Source: Candidatus Aegiribacteria sp. (GTDB lineage: Bacteria > Fermentibacterota > Fermentibacteria > Fermentibacterales > JCC-6). Taken from it: a stretch of 35,892 bases of DNA. Positions within the stretch are counted from its first letter, which is position 1, and each line of letters opens with the position of its first letter. Positions 3 to 7,389 of the stretch are shown in pieces. Location: NCBI GenBank assembly GCA_030610085.1, contig JAUWSL010000004.1, positions 1 to 35,892 of the forward strand. Direction: 5' to 3'. Position numbers and translations under genes: made by a program. Below the pieces are notes generated by a model. That model saw only the letters and a list, made by a program, of their open reading frames with translations, was not told the origin of the DNA and searched no databases.

Positions 3-497
3 CACGAAGAGAGGCTGTTCGCACTTCTTGTACTGGTCGATTCCTTCAATAGAACTGAAGAGGAAACGAAAGAGAGAATCTACAATGTGTACATGGACAG
101 TACGCGGTGGATAAACAACTGGGACCTTGTTGACCTTTCCGCCCCTCATATTCCCGGAGGATGGCTATACGGCAGGGATAGAAAACCGCTGCACAGGTTC
201 GCAGAATCTGACGATCTGTGGAAGAGGCGGATAGCAATAGTATCCACCCAGCACTTCATCAGAAAGAACGATTTCGGTGATACGCTGGCAATATCCGGAA
301 AACTTGTTTCTGATGATCATGATCTGATCCATAAAGCCGTTGGATGGATGCTGCGGGAAGTCGGCAAGAGGAACCTTGAAACCGAGGAAGGATTTCTGAA
401 GGAGCATTACATGGCAATGCCAAGGACAATGCTCAGATACGCTATAGAGAAATTCCCCGAGGAGAAACGGCAGAAATACCTGAAGGGTGAAATCTAA
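3..497 (+). CDS. DNA alkylation repair enzyme, AlkD-like (5' truncated by window edge)
   Basis: Frame is open to the window start (HEERLFALLVLVDSFNRTEEETKERIYNVYMDSTRWINNWDLVDLSAPHIPGGWL...). The NNWDLVD and KAVGWMLREVGKR segments are typical of AlkD HEAT-repeat glycosylases. Confidence 0.85.
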   Translation, partial: HEERLFALLVLVDSFNRTEEETKERIYNVYMDSTRWINNWDLVDLSAPHIPGGWLYGRDRKPLHRFAESDDLWKRRIAIVSTQHFIRKNDFGDTLAISGKLVSDDHDLIHKAVGWMLREVGKRNLETEEGFLKEHYMAMPRTMLRYAIEKFPEEKRQKYLKGEI

Positions 498-794: not shown

Positions 795-1595
795 ATGAAT
801 ATAGAATTGAGATTTGCAACTTCCTTCACAATCAACGATTCGATCGATGATAAATATTTATCCCATGGACAACTGAATACTCCTTACGGTACTCTTTGCA
901 TGATATGCAATGGTTTCGGTGATTCACGCGGTGGCGTTCTAGCAAGCAGTATCGCCTTTGAGATCATTCGAAGAATTGTTACATCGATCCCCGGTCGTTC
1001 CGCTGAAAAACTATTGAACAGCGCTATCAGAGAGGCGAACAAAGCTATATACAAAAATGCTTCGAGCAACATGAATATCCACAAAACAGGTTGTGAGCTT
1101 ATTGCACTGCTTATCGATACTGATGAGATGCAAAATGCGTTGATCTGTCGGGTGGGTTCCAGCAGACTGTACAGGATCTGGGATGACAATATCACTCAGA
1201 TCACAAAGGGCCACTACAGATTCACTGAGAAGGCTGAGCAGAGGTTAGCGGACGGGGAGGGCTCCCGGAGTCATTCAGAGAACAGAGTGCAGGTTTGCTC
1301 CATTGGTATCAGAGAAGAGATCGAACCGGAAATCCGGAAAATATTCGTACAGGAGAATGACAGATATATCATCTGCACCAGAGGTGTTACGGATCATATA
1401 AGTGATACGGAGATCGCTCAGCTTTACGAAGCGAATGCCCAGAAGTACGCCGATAACATTCTTCAGTGTGCCGGGAACCACGGAAGCAGAAACAATCCTG
1501 TAGTTCAGATAATCGATATAAACAGCAGTTCTGAATCAGGCAGAGAGAAAAACAAGGAACTTACTACATCAAATCAACGGAACAGAAGCGAATAA
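795..1595 (+). CDS. PP2C-like protein, predicted catalytically inactive (pseudophosphatase)
   Basis: PP2C-order motifs can be read but the Asp residues are replaced: ICNGFGDSRGGVLAS (canonical xxDGMGGxxxGExAS), VGSSRLYRI (canonical GDSRxY), ICTRGVTD (canonical SDGLTD), RNNPVVQII (canonical DNxTxxxx). Confidence 0.65.
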   Translation: MNIELRFATSFTINDSIDDKYLSHGQLNTPYGTLCMICNGFGDSRGGVLASSIAFEIIRRIVTSIPGRSAEKLLNSAIREANKAIYKNASSNMNIHKTGCELIALLIDTDEMQNALICRVGSSRLYRIWDDNITQITKGHYRFTEKAEQRLADGEGSRSHSENRVQVCSIGIREEIEPEIRKIFVQENDRYIICTRGVTDHISDTEIAQLYEANAQKYADNILQCAGNHGSRNNPVVQIIDINSSSESGREKNKELTTSNQRNRSE

Positions 1596-1789
1596 TGATC
1601 AGAGAGGAAAGCGGAGATCGTTCGGATGTGATACTACTGCAGATCCTTAAGATCAAGTCCATCAGATCCCTGATAATAATACTCTTCCTGTTGATCCTTG
1701 GCGTATTGCTGCTTCCTGAGAAAGATCCGCATCAGCAATCCGCGAATATCCAATCCAGCAGTGACCTTGATATCGTTGAGCGTAACTAA
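1595..1789 (+). CDS. Small single-pass membrane protein (64 aa)
   Basis: ATG at 1595 overlaps the TAA of the upstream PP2C-like gene by 1 nt; hydrophobic segment SLIIILFLLILGVLLL. Confidence 0.55.
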   Translation: MIREESGDRSDVILLQILKIKSIRSLIIILFLLILGVLLLPEKDPHQQSANIQSSSDLDIVERN

Positions 1790-1801
1790 TGAATACAGGG
1801 A

Positions 1802-3634
1802 TTAATATGTAAGCTGGAATATTCTCAGGGTATTTCCGTTCTTTGATCTGAATCGACCGCTGTATCTGAACATGGACCCTGGACATTCCTTCCCGGAAGT
1901 TATTGATTTGAACTGCATTGTCGCAATCTTCGCAGGAGTTTTAAGACTCGCTGCAATTTCAAGGGCTTCATCGATTTCTCTGCAGTAGTAATCCCTTCGT
2001 CCACTCAATGAAGAATTGAGCATGGTCACCAGACCGGCATGCAGAACGAGGGAATACGGTGGAAACGGAGGAATACAGTCGTTAAAACTACATATGAGTT
2101 CCTTTGTATCATTAACTGAATTCATTATCAGATAAGTATTTCCTGTGAGTGTACCGGCACTGAGAATTCTCAGGGATTTTTCCTTACATATACGCGATAC
2201 TTCTTCCATTATGCTGTTCATACTGGAAGCCCTTTCCTCTTCTACGTTATCAGCGCCATACAGGCTTATAACAGCAATCGGTCTTACAACCGGTTCGTAG
2301 ATACCGAGACTGCAGTACGGGTACTCATCGTCCGGGGAACTCCCGCTTCGATCAATTCCGATCTTCACGAGATCCAGAATAGGTATTTCAACCGGTTCAT
2401 ATCCAAGCTTCCTTAGATTTGATACGATGTATCCTGTTCCTCCAGGCTGATTTGTAGAGCGTTTATCCCATATTACAACTGGTATCAGTTCTCCATCGAT
2501 AGCTTCAGTAATTTCAAGTGCATACTCAAGCATGTTATCCGAGGAGAACTGGTACGCACTATCAGCATTGCCTGCAAACCGAGAGGCTGAAGATACCTCA
2601 ATTCTGTCAGCCTGCTGAACGATTCTGTCAAACCTGTCAATCCATTTTTCTTTTTCAGATTTGAGTATTTTCTCTCTGAAATGTTCCAATGGTGATGGCA
2701 GGATAATGTGTATTCGTTTACCCGTTTCCTGAAGACACTCATGAAACAGTATATCAGCACCATCAGCTGCGGATGCAATTCCGATATCGAATTTCATCCC
2801 GATGAGTATCTTCTTCAAACGGGCTTTTATTCTGCTTGAGATATGCTCAGGGAAACGAGGGCTGATTCTTCCTGCCCGGTCAATTCTGTGTCCTGCGAAA
2901 AGGGCTATCCTGGGTTTTCGTATACAGGCGAGTATTCCATCTGCTGTCTCATCATCTTTTTTCAGCAGGTCAAGCAACATCTTAGCATTGGTTCTTGTAG
3001 TCTTGATCTGTCCTATGCCGCTGCCTAAATGGCTCCTTGCTGCTTTGTACCATCTTGCAGCTGATTGGTAATCTCCCTTTATCAGGTAGGCTTCACCCAA
3101 TGAAGCGGGAACCCAGAATTCGCTTGTGGTTCCATGCTTATTGTACTCCTCCCAGCATTGAGTGATAACCTCATCAGCCAGTTCAATGCTCAATTCTCTT
3201 TTACCGAGGGCAAGTGCAAGAGCTGCTTCGTTTACTTTGCACCAGAAGTCTCCACCGAGTTCCCGGCTTTTCGTGTAACTATTAAAGGATGAAACAAGAG
3301 CAGATTCAGCATTCGGAGGATCCGATTCGGTCAGTTCAAACCATCTCCTTTTGTATAAACTTCCCAGCAGTGCAAGTAACTCAGGATCCGGAGCTGTCGT
3401 TTCTTCACTCAGGCTTTTAAGCATTTCTATAGCTTTTTCTACCATTCCCAGCTTTGACATGCAGAGTGCATGCTGCTTGACTATTTCAGGATCCGGTTCT
3501 TCTGCGGTCCTTAAATACTCATCACCAAGATCGTAGGCTTTAAGATATTCTCCACGTGAAATGAGCTTTTTCAGAGATGGGCTTCCTGCTAAATCCGGAC
3601 CTGTTACTTCATCGATAATGGCGTGATCATCCAT
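1802..3634 (-). CDS. TPR_S (TRAFs-binding-type TPR) - SLOG-like Rossmann - degenerate class III cyclase-like domain protein
   Basis: N-terminus LLALLGSLYKRRW...FWVPASLGEAYLIKGDYQSAARWYKAAR resembles TPR_S. Middle IALFAGHRIDRAGRISPRFP...GIASAADGADILFHECLQETGKRIHIILPSPLEHFREKIL resembles a SLOG-like nucleotide-binding fold. The last ~160 aa (AVISLYG...AGTLTGNTYLIM...YSLVLHAGLVT...DYYCREIDEALEIAASLKTPAKIATMQFKSI) follow the order of cyclase homology motifs. Confidence 0.7.
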   Translation of the reverse strand: MDDHAIIDEVTGPDLAGSPSLKKLISRGEYLKAYDLGDEYLRTAEEPDPEIVKQHALCMSKLGMVEKAIEMLKSLSEETTAPDPELLALLGSLYKRRWFELTESDPPNAESALVSSFNSYTKSRELGGDFWCKVNEAALALALGKRELSIELADEVITQCWEEYNKHGTTSEFWVPASLGEAYLIKGDYQSAARWYKAARSHLGSGIGQIKTTRTNAKMLLDLLKKDDETADGILACIRKPRIALFAGHRIDRAGRISPRFPEHISSRIKARLKKILIGMKFDIGIASAADGADILFHECLQETGKRIHIILPSPLEHFREKILKSEKEKWIDRFDRIVQQADRIEVSSASRFAGNADSAYQFSSDNMLEYALEITEAIDGELIPVVIWDKRSTNQPGGTGYIVSNLRKLGYEPVEIPILDLVKIGIDRSGSSPDDEYPYCSLGIYEPVVRPIAVISLYGADNVEEERASSMNSIMEEVSRICKEKSLRILSAGTLTGNTYLIMNSVNDTKELICSFNDCIPPFPPYSLVLHAGLVTMLNSSLSGRRDYYCREIDEALEIAASLKTPAKIATMQFKSITSGKECPGSMFRYSGRFRSKNGNTLRIFQLTY

Positions 3635-3655: not shown

Positions 3656-4345
3656 TCATGGCCTGTATACGACCAGGTTGTCATGAAGCGCGATACCCCA
3701 GTTACTGGATCTGTCTCCAAGCTGTATTCTTACGGTTTCAACGGTGTCGGGAATCATTACTTGTGAAGAACCTACAAGACTGTCGTCAATGAAAAATGAT
3801 ACCATCCGGTCTGAACCTATCTCGATACGATAGTTATGCCAGCTGCTCAGCAAATTATTCTGGTGGTGTTGCTCAATGCCGTAGATGACACCTTCATTAT
3901 TGCCGGTATTGAATTTCAGAACACATTGACGATGGGGCATTGCCCAGTCAAGCTCACCAGAGTAAAATATTTCTATACGCGCTATACTGAAATTGTTCCG
4001 AGTTATTTCATTCCTGAAGCCGGGAGTTGTAATACACAAAGCAGCCGTAACCCAGGTTCCCCTTTCACTGCATTCAAGGTACATATCACACTCAACGCCG
4101 AGCCCTTCACCTATTTCAAAAACCGTGCGGGAGAAGACTCCGCTGCCGTACATGGAATCACCGTTATTGATAAAGCAGGGTGGAGGTACACCCAGAGAAT
4201 CCAGAATTCCGGACTGCGGGTCACCGTAGAGTATCCAGCAGGATTCCAGTTCGATGGATGAAAAGTCCTCCGAGAATAGTACTTCACCAGAATAACCTGC
4301 AGCATATAGAGCTGTCAGCGTGTACAGCAAACCTGCAAGCTTCAT
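3656..4345 (-). CDS. Secreted LamG/concanavalin A-like lectin-fold protein (paralogue 1)
   Basis: Signal-peptide-like N-terminus MKLAGLLYTLTALYAAGYSG; FSEDFSSIELESCWILYG start and W..YRIEIGSDRMVSFFIDDSL typical of ConA-like jelly rolls; extensive identity with the adjacent 4382..5065 product. Confidence 0.65.
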   Translation of the reverse strand: MKLAGLLYTLTALYAAGYSGEVLFSEDFSSIELESCWILYGDPQSGILDSLGVPPPCFINNGDSMYGSGVFSRTVFEIGEGLGVECDMYLECSERGTWVTAALCITTPGFRNEITRNNFSIARIEIFYSGELDWAMPHRQCVLKFNTGNNEGVIYGIEQHHQNNLLSSWHNYRIEIGSDRMVSFFIDDSLVGSSQVMIPDTVETVRIQLGDRSSNWGIALHDNLVVYRP

Positions 4346-4381: not shown

Positions 4382-5065
4382 TCATGGTCTGTATACGAGC
4401 AGGTTATCATGGAGAGCTATACCCCAGTCAGAGGAACGGTTACCCAGCTGTATTCTCACATGTTCTGATGTATCTGGTATAGATACGGTAGAGGAGCAGT
4501 AGAGGGAATCATCGATGAAGTAATTCACTATTCGGTGTTCATTGATCTCCATTCTGAATCTGTGCCATCCATCCAGCAATTCGTTCTGGTGAGGAAGCTG
4601 AATACTGAATTTATTTTCATGATCGTGAAAACAGTTAAAGTACAGAACCCCCTGTAGATGGGGGCAAGACCAGGCCATTTCTCCGTCGTAGGAAAAAGAG
4701 AGTGCTGCAACGGTATAACCGCTTTGCGAACGGTCGTTTATGTAATCCGGAGTAATGAAGTACAGCGAAGCTGTGACCCACGTACCCCTTGGTTCACAGG
4801 AAAGGTACATGTCACACTCAATACCAAGGCCTTCAGCAATTTCAAAGACTTCCCTTGTAATAATGCCGCTGCCCGCCATTGCATCACCGTTATTGTTGAA
4901 ACAGGGAGGGGGTATGCCAAGGGAATCCAGTATCCTGGGCCGGGGGTCTCCGTAGAATATCCAGTTAGATTCAAGCTCCCCGGACGAAAAGTCATCAGCG
5001 AGCAGTGTATCCGCTGCCCCAGGGCATTGAAAAGATAGAAGCAGAATCAGTGTAAATGATTTCAT
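4382..5065 (-). CDS. Secreted LamG/concanavalin A-like lectin-fold protein (paralogue 2)
   Basis: The ORF track begins at 5170, but the internal ATG at 5065 gives a clean signal peptide (MKSFTLILLLSFQCPGAADT) and removes the overlap with the upstream gene. Shares GDPxxxILDSLGxPPPCFxNNGDxMxGSG and IQLGxRSSxWGIALHDNLxVYRP with the neighbour. Confidence 0.65.
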   Translation of the reverse strand: MKSFTLILLLSFQCPGAADTLLADDFSSGELESNWIFYGDPRPRILDSLGIPPPCFNNNGDAMAGSGIITREVFEIAEGLGIECDMYLSCEPRGTWVTASLYFITPDYINDRSQSGYTVAALSFSYDGEMAWSCPHLQGVLYFNCFHDHENKFSIQLPHQNELLDGWHRFRMEINEHRIVNYFIDDSLYCSSTVSIPDTSEHVRIQLGNRSSDWGIALHDNLLVYRP

Positions 5066-5103
5066 CGGCAGGCTTATGTTTCTGTAAAGGCCAGCTGTCA
5101 CAC

Positions 5104-7389
5104 TTACCATCTTCGCCTGAATACCCTGATGTTGTCGATATGATGAGGAAGCGACCCGGAGCTTCCCCACAGGTAGATCCGCACAGAATCCTGTCCGGTT
5201 GCGATTTCAATGGTATCTTCACAGAAAAGGCTGTCGTTAAGCCAGAATCTTATCGATTCGGTACAGGTTTCAATGCTGAAGAGTTGCGGTATTTCACGCT
5301 GAAGCCACAGGGATTCCGGTTCTGTCGTTGTTGATAATGCACTGTCGTATGCGAATATCGATACGATTTCACAAAACTGATCGTTAATTCCCGGAGTATA
5401 GAACCATCTCATCTCCAAATCCGACACGATCCCGGGATCGAGATGGAATGTGCTGGCAGTGCTTCTGGTCATGCCAATGGCAAGCCAATTGCATCCCCTG
5501 GCATCAGACATATCCGGTATTGATACTTCGGCTGAGAAAGTTATTCCCGGGATGAGTGGATATTCAGCCATACTTACAAGGGGCACATTATTCGCGTCGC
5601 AGCAATAATTACCCGTTATGGGATCTTGGTGAAGTACCGGGGAGTAATTTCTGTTCCGGCCCATTTCCCATACCGTCTGATCGATATATCCTTTTTCCCA
5701 GTCTTCAGTGAAAAGATCGATCCCTGTTTTCACATGCTCATTCCATGAACCGTCCGAGTCCAGCTGCAGGATCCATGCATCGGGCTGACCGTACCTTGTA
5801 GTTGTTCCTGAAGCGAAGAACAATCCCTGTTCGTTGAAGGAAATGGAATACAAGTATTCGTCTCCGCCGATATCGATGACACTCTGCCACTTCTCATCAC
5901 CGAACTCATTCAGCAGAAGCAGCCAGCCGTCGCTTGAACCGTTTCCCCAGGAGCGTGTTGAACCGGCTATGAGAATGTCTCCACCGGGAAGCAGAACAGC
6001 ATCGGATGCTGCATCGGAAAGGTTACCACCAAAAGCGTTTTCCCACTTCAGAGTGAGGTCCGGTGTAAATCTCATTACCGAAAGGTCACCGTTTCGCGCA
6101 CCGAAAGTATCCCTTGTCATAAGGAGAATGATATCTCCGTCTGGAAGCGCCAGGCCGCAGCTTACAGGTGACCGGTTATCACCGATTATGATCCTGCTGA
6201 GTGTCTCCCCATCGGGTGACATCAGTTCAATTCCGTTAGAAATCGATGCTGAATCTCTATATATGCGCAGTCTATTGTTATTCTCAAGTACGAGGAGTTC
6301 GCGGGAAGTGCTGCCTCCTCTGAGAGTATCACGTCGTAACAGCTCACCGGAAGTACTCATTAATATTTGATGCGTTGCGAGGAAGGGAGTTGAATTGAGG
6401 TGTCTTACAGTGAATGAGAGCAGCAGCAGGCTGTCTCTGGTCAAATCGAAGGAACTGAGCTCCGGCTGAACGGCTCCCTCCCAGGTCAGCCACCATTCAT
6501 TCTTCCATTCTATTCCACCGAGGCTGTCGAATCTTACCGCCCTTACTGGAAATCCTGTGTGGTCGAAATCCGCATATTCACCTGCAGCACAGATCACATC
6601 GCCATCTGAAGCAGGCAGTAGGAGGGGTTTATCCTCACCCGCAAGTGAATCTGACCAGAACCATTCAAGATTGCCTGTACTGTCGAAATGTACGACCCAC
6701 CATTCACTCCAGAAACCCCAGTCCCACGTTCCTGCAGCTGTAAATCCTCCATCTGATGTGGCAAGAATGTCCGTTGCGTAATCCCAGGAATCGGTCCCTC
6801 CGACAACCAGATTTAGAAGACTCTCTGTATTCGACGTTTGAGGGTCGCTGCCGAAGAACCGGATCACGAATAGTATCAGGATCACCGAAAGAGCGGCCAG
6901 CAGCAGTGCCGGCAGGGCTCTTCGTTTTGCAGTGATCTGTCGTGGAATTTCCATTGATTTCTGGCCATTCTCAGAAAGCAGCTTGCTCAGAGATTCCAGG
7001 AGCCGGTTTGATGCATCCTTCCAGTTCTCGGTTGCATCCAGCCACTGGTGGGAATTGGTGAAATACCTTATCCCCTTGGATTGTTCGACATCTTCAATTT
7101 TCATCGGTATCAGAGGAATATGGAGATTTGTCGCTATGTCCAGTTCGTTTCTTATCTGCCGTGAGCTGTTTACATCAGCGCTGAAAAGAAGGAGCATTCC
7201 AGAGGAATTCGATATGGCATCATAAATGGTTTCAGCCCAGTCTGCTCCTGGTGGAATATCCCTTGTTGATATCCAGTATTTAATACCGGAAGAATCGAGA
7301 AGATCTATTACCTTTTCGACTTTCTTTGCATCTCTGCTTGAATGGCTGATGAAGATGTACTTATCCAAATTGACCCCTGTACATTTCAT
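5104..7389 (-). CDS. TIR - transmembrane - beta-propeller - ConA-like lectin receptor-like protein (761 aa)
   Basis: N-terminal TIR: YIFISHSSRDAKKVEKVIDLLDSSGIKYWISTRDIPPGADWAETIYDAISNSSGMLLLFS...SSRQIRNELDIA, with a Glu at the expected NADase position. TM: LPALLLAALSVILILFVIRFFG. Repeated propeller-like blades follow (DGGFTAAGTWDWG, GDILIAGSTRSWG...GWLLLLNEFGDEKWQ). C-terminal ~200 aa is lectin-like (FTEDWEKGYIDQTVWEMG...ETCTESIRFWLNDSL). Confidence 0.8.
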   Translation of the reverse strand: MKCTGVNLDKYIFISHSSRDAKKVEKVIDLLDSSGIKYWISTRDIPPGADWAETIYDAISNSSGMLLLFSADVNSSRQIRNELDIATNLHIPLIPMKIEDVEQSKGIRYFTNSHQWLDATENWKDASNRLLESLSKLLSENGQKSMEIPRQITAKRRALPALLLAALSVILILFVIRFFGSDPQTSNTESLLNLVVGGTDSWDYATDILATSDGGFTAAGTWDWGFWSEWWVVHFDSTGNLEWFWSDSLAGEDKPLLLPASDGDVICAAGEYADFDHTGFPVRAVRFDSLGGIEWKNEWWLTWEGAVQPELSSFDLTRDSLLLLSFTVRHLNSTPFLATHQILMSTSGELLRRDTLRGGSTSRELLVLENNNRLRIYRDSASISNGIELMSPDGETLSRIIIGDNRSPVSCGLALPDGDIILLMTRDTFGARNGDLSVMRFTPDLTLKWENAFGGNLSDAASDAVLLPGGDILIAGSTRSWGNGSSDGWLLLLNEFGDEKWQSVIDIGGDEYLYSISFNEQGLFFASGTTTRYGQPDAWILQLDSDGSWNEHVKTGIDLFTEDWEKGYIDQTVWEMGRNRNYSPVLHQDPITGNYCCDANNVPLVSMAEYPLIPGITFSAEVSIPDMSDARGCNWLAIGMTRSTASTFHLDPGIVSDLEMRWFYTPGINDQFCEIVSIFAYDSALSTTTEPESLWLQREIPQLFSIETCTESIRFWLNDSLFCEDTIEIATGQDSVRIYLWGSSGSLPHHIDNIRVFRRRW

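Follow-up and report, generated by a model that had tools for sequence, protein, structure and literature searches.

A predicted Stp1-type PP2C pseudophosphatase under purifying selection in Candidatus Aegiribacteria

Eukaryotes are known to have pseudophosphatases of the PP2C family. TAB1, a metazoan PP2C-like protein, has the PPM fold, lacks phosphatase activity and acts as a binding partner (PMC12002173, PMC5297835), and PHLPP2, also a metazoan PP2C-like pseudophosphatase, has lost activity in a lineage-specific manner and has an altered site that is conserved (PMC12002173). In bacteria, SpoIIE-type PP2Cs of the PPM superfamily are active without the phosphate-binding Arg or the M3 Asp and retain the M1 and M2 Asp (PMC3517971). 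Inactive enzyme domains have been proposed to act as decoys or inhibitors in other prokaryotic conflict systems (PMC7159879). No description of a bacterial Stp1-type pseudophosphatase was found in full-text literature searches, which hints weakly that none has been described.

The gene studied here lies near the start of a 35,892-nucleotide stretch of Candidatus Aegiribacteria sp. DNA (contig JAUWSL010000004.1; the whole stretch is called the window). By sequence and predicted fold, the ORF at 795-1595 is a Stp1-type PP2C (hereafter pseudo-PP2C). It matched the Stp1/IreP profile NF033484 (NCBIfam) with an E value of 6e-32 and 111 bits, below the equivalog cut-off of 230, scored above the cut-off of the Pfam PP2C profile, and was matched in a sequence search by PDB chains of tPphA and PstP at E 1e-18 to 1e-14, with sequence similarity over the domain. 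An AlphaFold model with an input of six sequences reached a pLDDT of 75.5 and a pTM of 0.74, with low confidence at residues 13-19, 156-165 and in the tail after 246; a scan for the DGMGGH pattern gave a few canonical PP2Cs, which were used only to deepen this structure alignment. Foldseek placed tPphA and PstP (2j86/1txo) as the best PDB neighbours of the model (E about 1e-19, TMt about 0.8). These results bear out a preliminary description of the locus, according to which the fold motifs were retained.

Table 1. Coordinates of the pseudo-PP2C gene, its altered site residues and the neighbouring genes in the window
Feature	Position	Strand	Basis
Pseudo-PP2C (Stp1-type PPM fold), 266 aa plus stop	795..1595	+	profiles, PDB sequence matches, AlphaFold model
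Codon 15: phosphate-binding Arg (R in 26/26 canonical) to Asp	837..839	+	alignment
Codon 20: motif-1 metal-site Asp (D in 26/26 canonical) to Lys	852..854	+	alignment
Codon 39: DGMGG Asp to Asn; Ser in G002, Thr in G001	909..911	+	alignment
Codons 43-44: canonical Gly-His to derived Asp-Ser, common to all three orthologues	921..926	+	alignment
Codon 101: motif-4 Thr to Glu; Glu/Asp in orthologues	1095..1097	+	alignment
Codon 122: GDSR Asp (M3 metal) to Ser; His/Ser in orthologues	1158..1160	+	alignment
Codon 196: SDG Asp to Arg; Ser/Gly in orthologues	1380..1382	+	alignment
Codon 233: DN Asp to Asn; Asn/Asp in orthologues	1491..1493	+	alignment
64-aa single-TM mini-protein; hydrophobic segment residues 22-40 (1658-1714)	1595..1789	+	TAATG overlap with PP2C stop, codon use
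Convergent TPR_S-SLOG protein, 610 aa; conserved neighbour in both orthologous loci	1802..3634	-	TPR-S PF20308 E 1.8e-15
AlkD-type DNA alkylation repair protein, cut by the window edge at its 5' end; upstream neighbour, conserved	3..497	+	PF08713 E 7e-47
TIR protein of convergent SLOG/TIR gene row (context)	5104..7389	-	PF13676 E 3e-21

Site residues were compared with those of 26 full-length canonical relatives from other phyla, and the main Asp positions with 32 relatives, in an alignment that is less sure in its N-terminal part, above all for the G001 share. All 32 canonical matches kept Asp at the catalytic positions wherever these were aligned. In the pseudo-PP2C, the metal-binding Asp residues of motifs 1, 2, 8 and 11 were replaced (K20, N39, R196 and N233), as was the invariant Thr of motif 4 (E101), which is Thr in 26 of 26 canonical proteins; in human numbering, the PP2C metal ligands are D60, D239 and D282. 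The invariant Gly residues of motifs 5, 6 and 8 were kept (G121, G171 and G197), and G99 was also retained among the fold glycines. Set against the published list of eight invariant PP2C residues (PMC6213207), the protein has lost five and kept the three glycines. The three Asp substitutions named in the preliminary description, at codons 39, 196 and 233, were all found, but the count understated the loss, which also takes in R15 to D, D20 to K, T101 to E, D122 to S and two further changes at positions invariant in the 26 canonical relatives, G43 to D and D139 to G. Loss of the M1 and M2 Asp argues against catalysis, because SpoIIE remains active without the Arg and the M3 Asp while holding on to these ligands. 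Judged by its residues, the pseudo-PP2C is very probably a dead enzyme.

Within a sample of 42 genomes of the phylum, in which the window genome is G000, the gene was found in three, namely G000, G002 (56% identity) and G001 (about 30%), which are different species of the same genus; these three known members all come from draft genomes that are 67 to 97% complete (G000 67%, G001 97%). The PPM fold together with the catalytic losses was found throughout the three orthologues. Neither of the other two has the catalytic Asp set, and the orthologues with canonical Asp residues that the preliminary description had considered a sign of recent decay were looked for and not found. The replacements differ, and the main four Asp positions (39, 122, 196 and 233) read N/S/T, S/H/S, R/S/G and N/N/D in G000/G002/G001. 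The G001 protein is very divergent (tree branch 3.8) and has kept Asp at the last motif (DN); some residual metal binding is possible in this protein. The trio forms one clade against all canonical matches (99/98), with a long G001 branch, and has in common derived residues seldom or never seen in canonical proteins (D43-S44, T63-S64, E/D101, R164 and others). A wider sample gave matches in 139 of 385 genomes, the best outsider scoring 155 bits against at least 357 for the trio, and all the outsiders examined were canonical. A scan of genome contigs for relatives returned one distant canonical PP2C match, and none was found in the viral contigs scanned. No Stp1-type paralogue or other Stp1-type match was found in the 42 phylum genomes; this absence rests on a separate phylum search, because the PP2C_2 profile, which had no match over the phylum, is blind even to the trio. 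The surroundings of the SLOG genes in other phylum members were also searched for more divergent PP2C genes, and none was found. In the SLOG protein tree, G009 and G011, which do not have the pseudo-PP2C, fall inside the clade of the three carriers. The simplest reading is that their common ancestor had the gene and that G009 and G011 have both lost it, which makes it dispensable.

Hanks kinases were detected in 5 of the 42 genomes and, at E<=1e-10, in none of the three carriers, including the 97% complete G001, so a Hanks kinase is unlikely as a partner of the pseudo-PP2C or as the kinase that it serves. SpoIIE-type PP2Cs were found in 39 of the 42 genomes, and none was seen in the window genome, which is 67% complete.

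As the preliminary description had stated, the stop codon of the pseudo-PP2C gene (TAA, 1593-1595) overlaps by one base the ATG (1595-1597) of a second ORF, whose product has 64 aa and one strong hydrophobic segment (Kyte-Doolittle 2.81 over 19 residues). This mini-ORF looks coding, with a gene-like codon use that beats 99.6% of off-frame windows and lies at the 39th percentile of true-frame windows. A search of the phylum for homologues of the mini-protein gave chance-level matches only, none of them convincing. In G002, about 40 bases separate the PP2C stop from the SLOG stop, which leaves no room for a mini-ORF; in G001, three stops precede a hydrophobic stretch that is found further downstream in the frame of the PP2C gene; it has no usual start codon immediately before it and is at most a broken remnant of a counterpart. 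Among the canonical relatives, 11 of 32 have a TM-like segment in the same chain, following the PP2C domain. The membrane tethering proposed earlier would apply to the window species only; since the step concerns one genome (G000) and short hydrophobic stretches arise easily, an anchoring role for the mini-protein is put forward tentatively, as a possibility on the weaker side.

In all three carriers the pseudo-PP2C gene sits between the AlkD gene and the convergent TPR_S-SLOG gene, whose name SLOG follows the preliminary description and a FAGHR-type motif recognised by eye rather than a profile match. Only 12 bases (window 1789-1802) lie between the convergent stops of the mini-protein gene and the SLOG gene, and promoter and terminator scans of 450-1900 found no more than in shuffled sequences; with so short a gap and no terminator-like site, the two transcripts may overlap. 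By eye, the C-terminal part of the SLOG protein (about 180 aa) looked like a class III cyclase, and this candidate domain was dropped, as it found no support from Pfam or PDB profiles. Further along the same strand, 3656-4345 (-) and 4382-5170 (-) encode mutually related proteins with signal-like N-termini, which by eye look similar to the C-terminal part of the TIR protein, as though separate genes had arisen by duplication of an outer domain; this set is conserved in relatives. The slot downstream of the SLOG gene is variable among species (L045 2200-5500, L046 2200-6900, L044 6650-10940), with contents that looked sulfatase-like, oxidoreductase-like plus galactokinase-like, and like an RCC1-like repeat protein, and L046 has a short AlkD 3' fragment at 5769-5831.

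The comparison of G000 with G002 bears on whether the gene is decaying. At a dS of about 0.9-1.0, similar for the pseudo-PP2C, SLOG and AlkD comparisons, the NG86 dN/dS, which is approximate at dS near 1, was 0.28 (95% 0.18-0.41) for the pseudo-PP2C, a value that indicates maintenance by selection; it was alike for the SLOG gene, at 0.245 (95% 0.19-0.31), and 0.13 for AlkD. After an equal number of random substitutions, the frame stayed open in 12 of 20,000 trials. The former active-site loops, which are the slowest-changing parts in live enzymes, changed at the same rate as the rest of the protein (pN 0.224 versus 0.229). Together with the shared derived residues, these results indicate an old catalytic loss followed by retention rather than recent decay, which was rejected on dN/dS and on those residues; the gene is useful but dispensable. 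A phosphatase stranded after its lineage lost the Hanks kinase, and now drifting, would fit the lack of detected Hanks kinases in the carriers, the loss of the gene in G009 and G011, the differing Asp replacements and the TM tail that is broken or absent in relatives. Such drift is nevertheless improbable in view of the upper bound on dN/dS, of the intact frame in all three genomes, synonymous distance being saturated for two of them, and of the derived residues common to the trio, and the gene probably encodes a real non-enzymatic regulator. Even less credible is a cryptic enzyme whose rebuilt site still hydrolyses something, for example with a metal held by D43 and E/D101. These residues are acidic, derived and common to the trio, and SpoIIE, in which only a single metal is seen, functions although it lacks the Arg and the M3 Asp (PMC3517971), but SpoIIE keeps the M1/M2 Asp ligands that are replaced here, and no extra constraint was seen on the former active-site loops.

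The preliminary description had also suggested a possible connection of the gene with the TIR operon. The pseudo-PP2C could be an accessory of the SLOG/TIR island, as a decoy or inhibitor, which would be a special case of the non-enzymatic reading with a named partner: the gene adjoins the SLOG gene in 3 of 3 carriers, among them G001, in which neither NUDIX nor PilD was found next to TIR, and it has the patchy presence that is common among defence accessories. Against this, the SLOG and TIR genes lie on the opposite strand and are thus not in the pseudo-PP2C operon, and co-occurrence is inconsistent, since only three of the eight close SLOG carriers (G000, G001, G002, G009, G011, G017, G019 and G040) have the gene; it was lost in G009 and G011, which keep SLOG (G009 also TIR), and is absent in G017, G019 and G040. 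AlkD is an equally conserved neighbour, so that plain inheritance suffices to explain the adjacency, the defence-profile matches of the pseudo-PP2C protein were only marginal, and the idea presupposes a defensive role of SLOG/TIR that is itself putative. All in all, the proposed link is weak, any functional SLOG/TIR connection is doubtful, and the accessory role is unlikely. Slightly less likely again is the fullest version, in which a genus-restricted PPM pseudophosphatase, kept without Hanks kinases, would control or guard the SLOG/TIR proteins through phosphate-independent binding, as a bacterial parallel to TAB1.

We therefore favour, with a probability of roughly 0.65, a bacterial PPM pseudophosphatase with an ancestral loss of its site and a fold kept by purifying selection as a phosphate-independent binding module. 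The metal site and the phosphate-binding Arg would have been lost in the ancestor of part of the genus, and the fold would then have been maintained by purifying selection for a non-enzymatic job. The protein probably grips a partner without recognising phosphate, a mode proposed in view of the loss of both the Arg and the metal ligands. The non-catalytic half of the earlier suggestion of a non-catalytic binding module is supported at the level of sequence, and the binding half is a likely prediction. A PP2C bearing a membrane anchor at its C-terminus, as is seen in about a third of canonical relatives, was probably the ancestor; this anchor seems to persist in the window species as the 64-aa TM peptide, which is translationally coupled, and to have been lost in G002, a step that is the weakest of the scheme. 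Candidate partners would be the partners or substrates of the phylum's SpoIIE-type phosphatases, or an element of the neighbouring SLOG/TIR island.

The closest described systems are the Stp1/IreP-type PP2Cs (tPphA, PstP, Stp1), with which the pseudo-PP2C has in common the fold, the sequence family and the structural glycines, many relatives also having a C-terminal TM segment. In contrast to these enzymes, it is devoid of the metal Asp residues, the phosphate-binding Arg and the motif-4 Thr, and its genome has no detected Hanks kinase. SpoIIE-type PP2Cs belong to the same superfamily and likewise do without the phosphate Arg and the M3 Asp (PMC3517971), but they keep the M1/M2 Asp and activity, and the pseudo-PP2C sequence matches Stp1 far better. 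A catalytically dead form of a widespread enzyme close to TIR/SLOG-type genes recalls the inactive domains of prokaryotic conflict systems (PMC7159879), although the only passage of that paper to mention PP2C describes it as catalytically active. The likeness to PHLPP2 lies in a lineage-specific loss with a conserved altered site, whereas PHLPP2 is multidomain, keeps zinc at the M2 site and represents an unrelated event. TAB1 offers a parallel in kind, a PPM fold without activity that binds a partner, binding being only predicted here; unlike the pseudo-PP2C, which retains no Asp ligand and for which no Hanks kinase was found, TAB1 is eukaryotic, partners the kinase TAK1 and holds one Mn in M2 in its crystal structure (PMC12002173). 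Beside these eukaryotic proteins, a small clade with clear catalytic loss and ongoing selection, whose host cells have no detected Hanks kinase that it could serve, provides a clean case in which to ask about the role of a PP2C fold that no longer catalyses.
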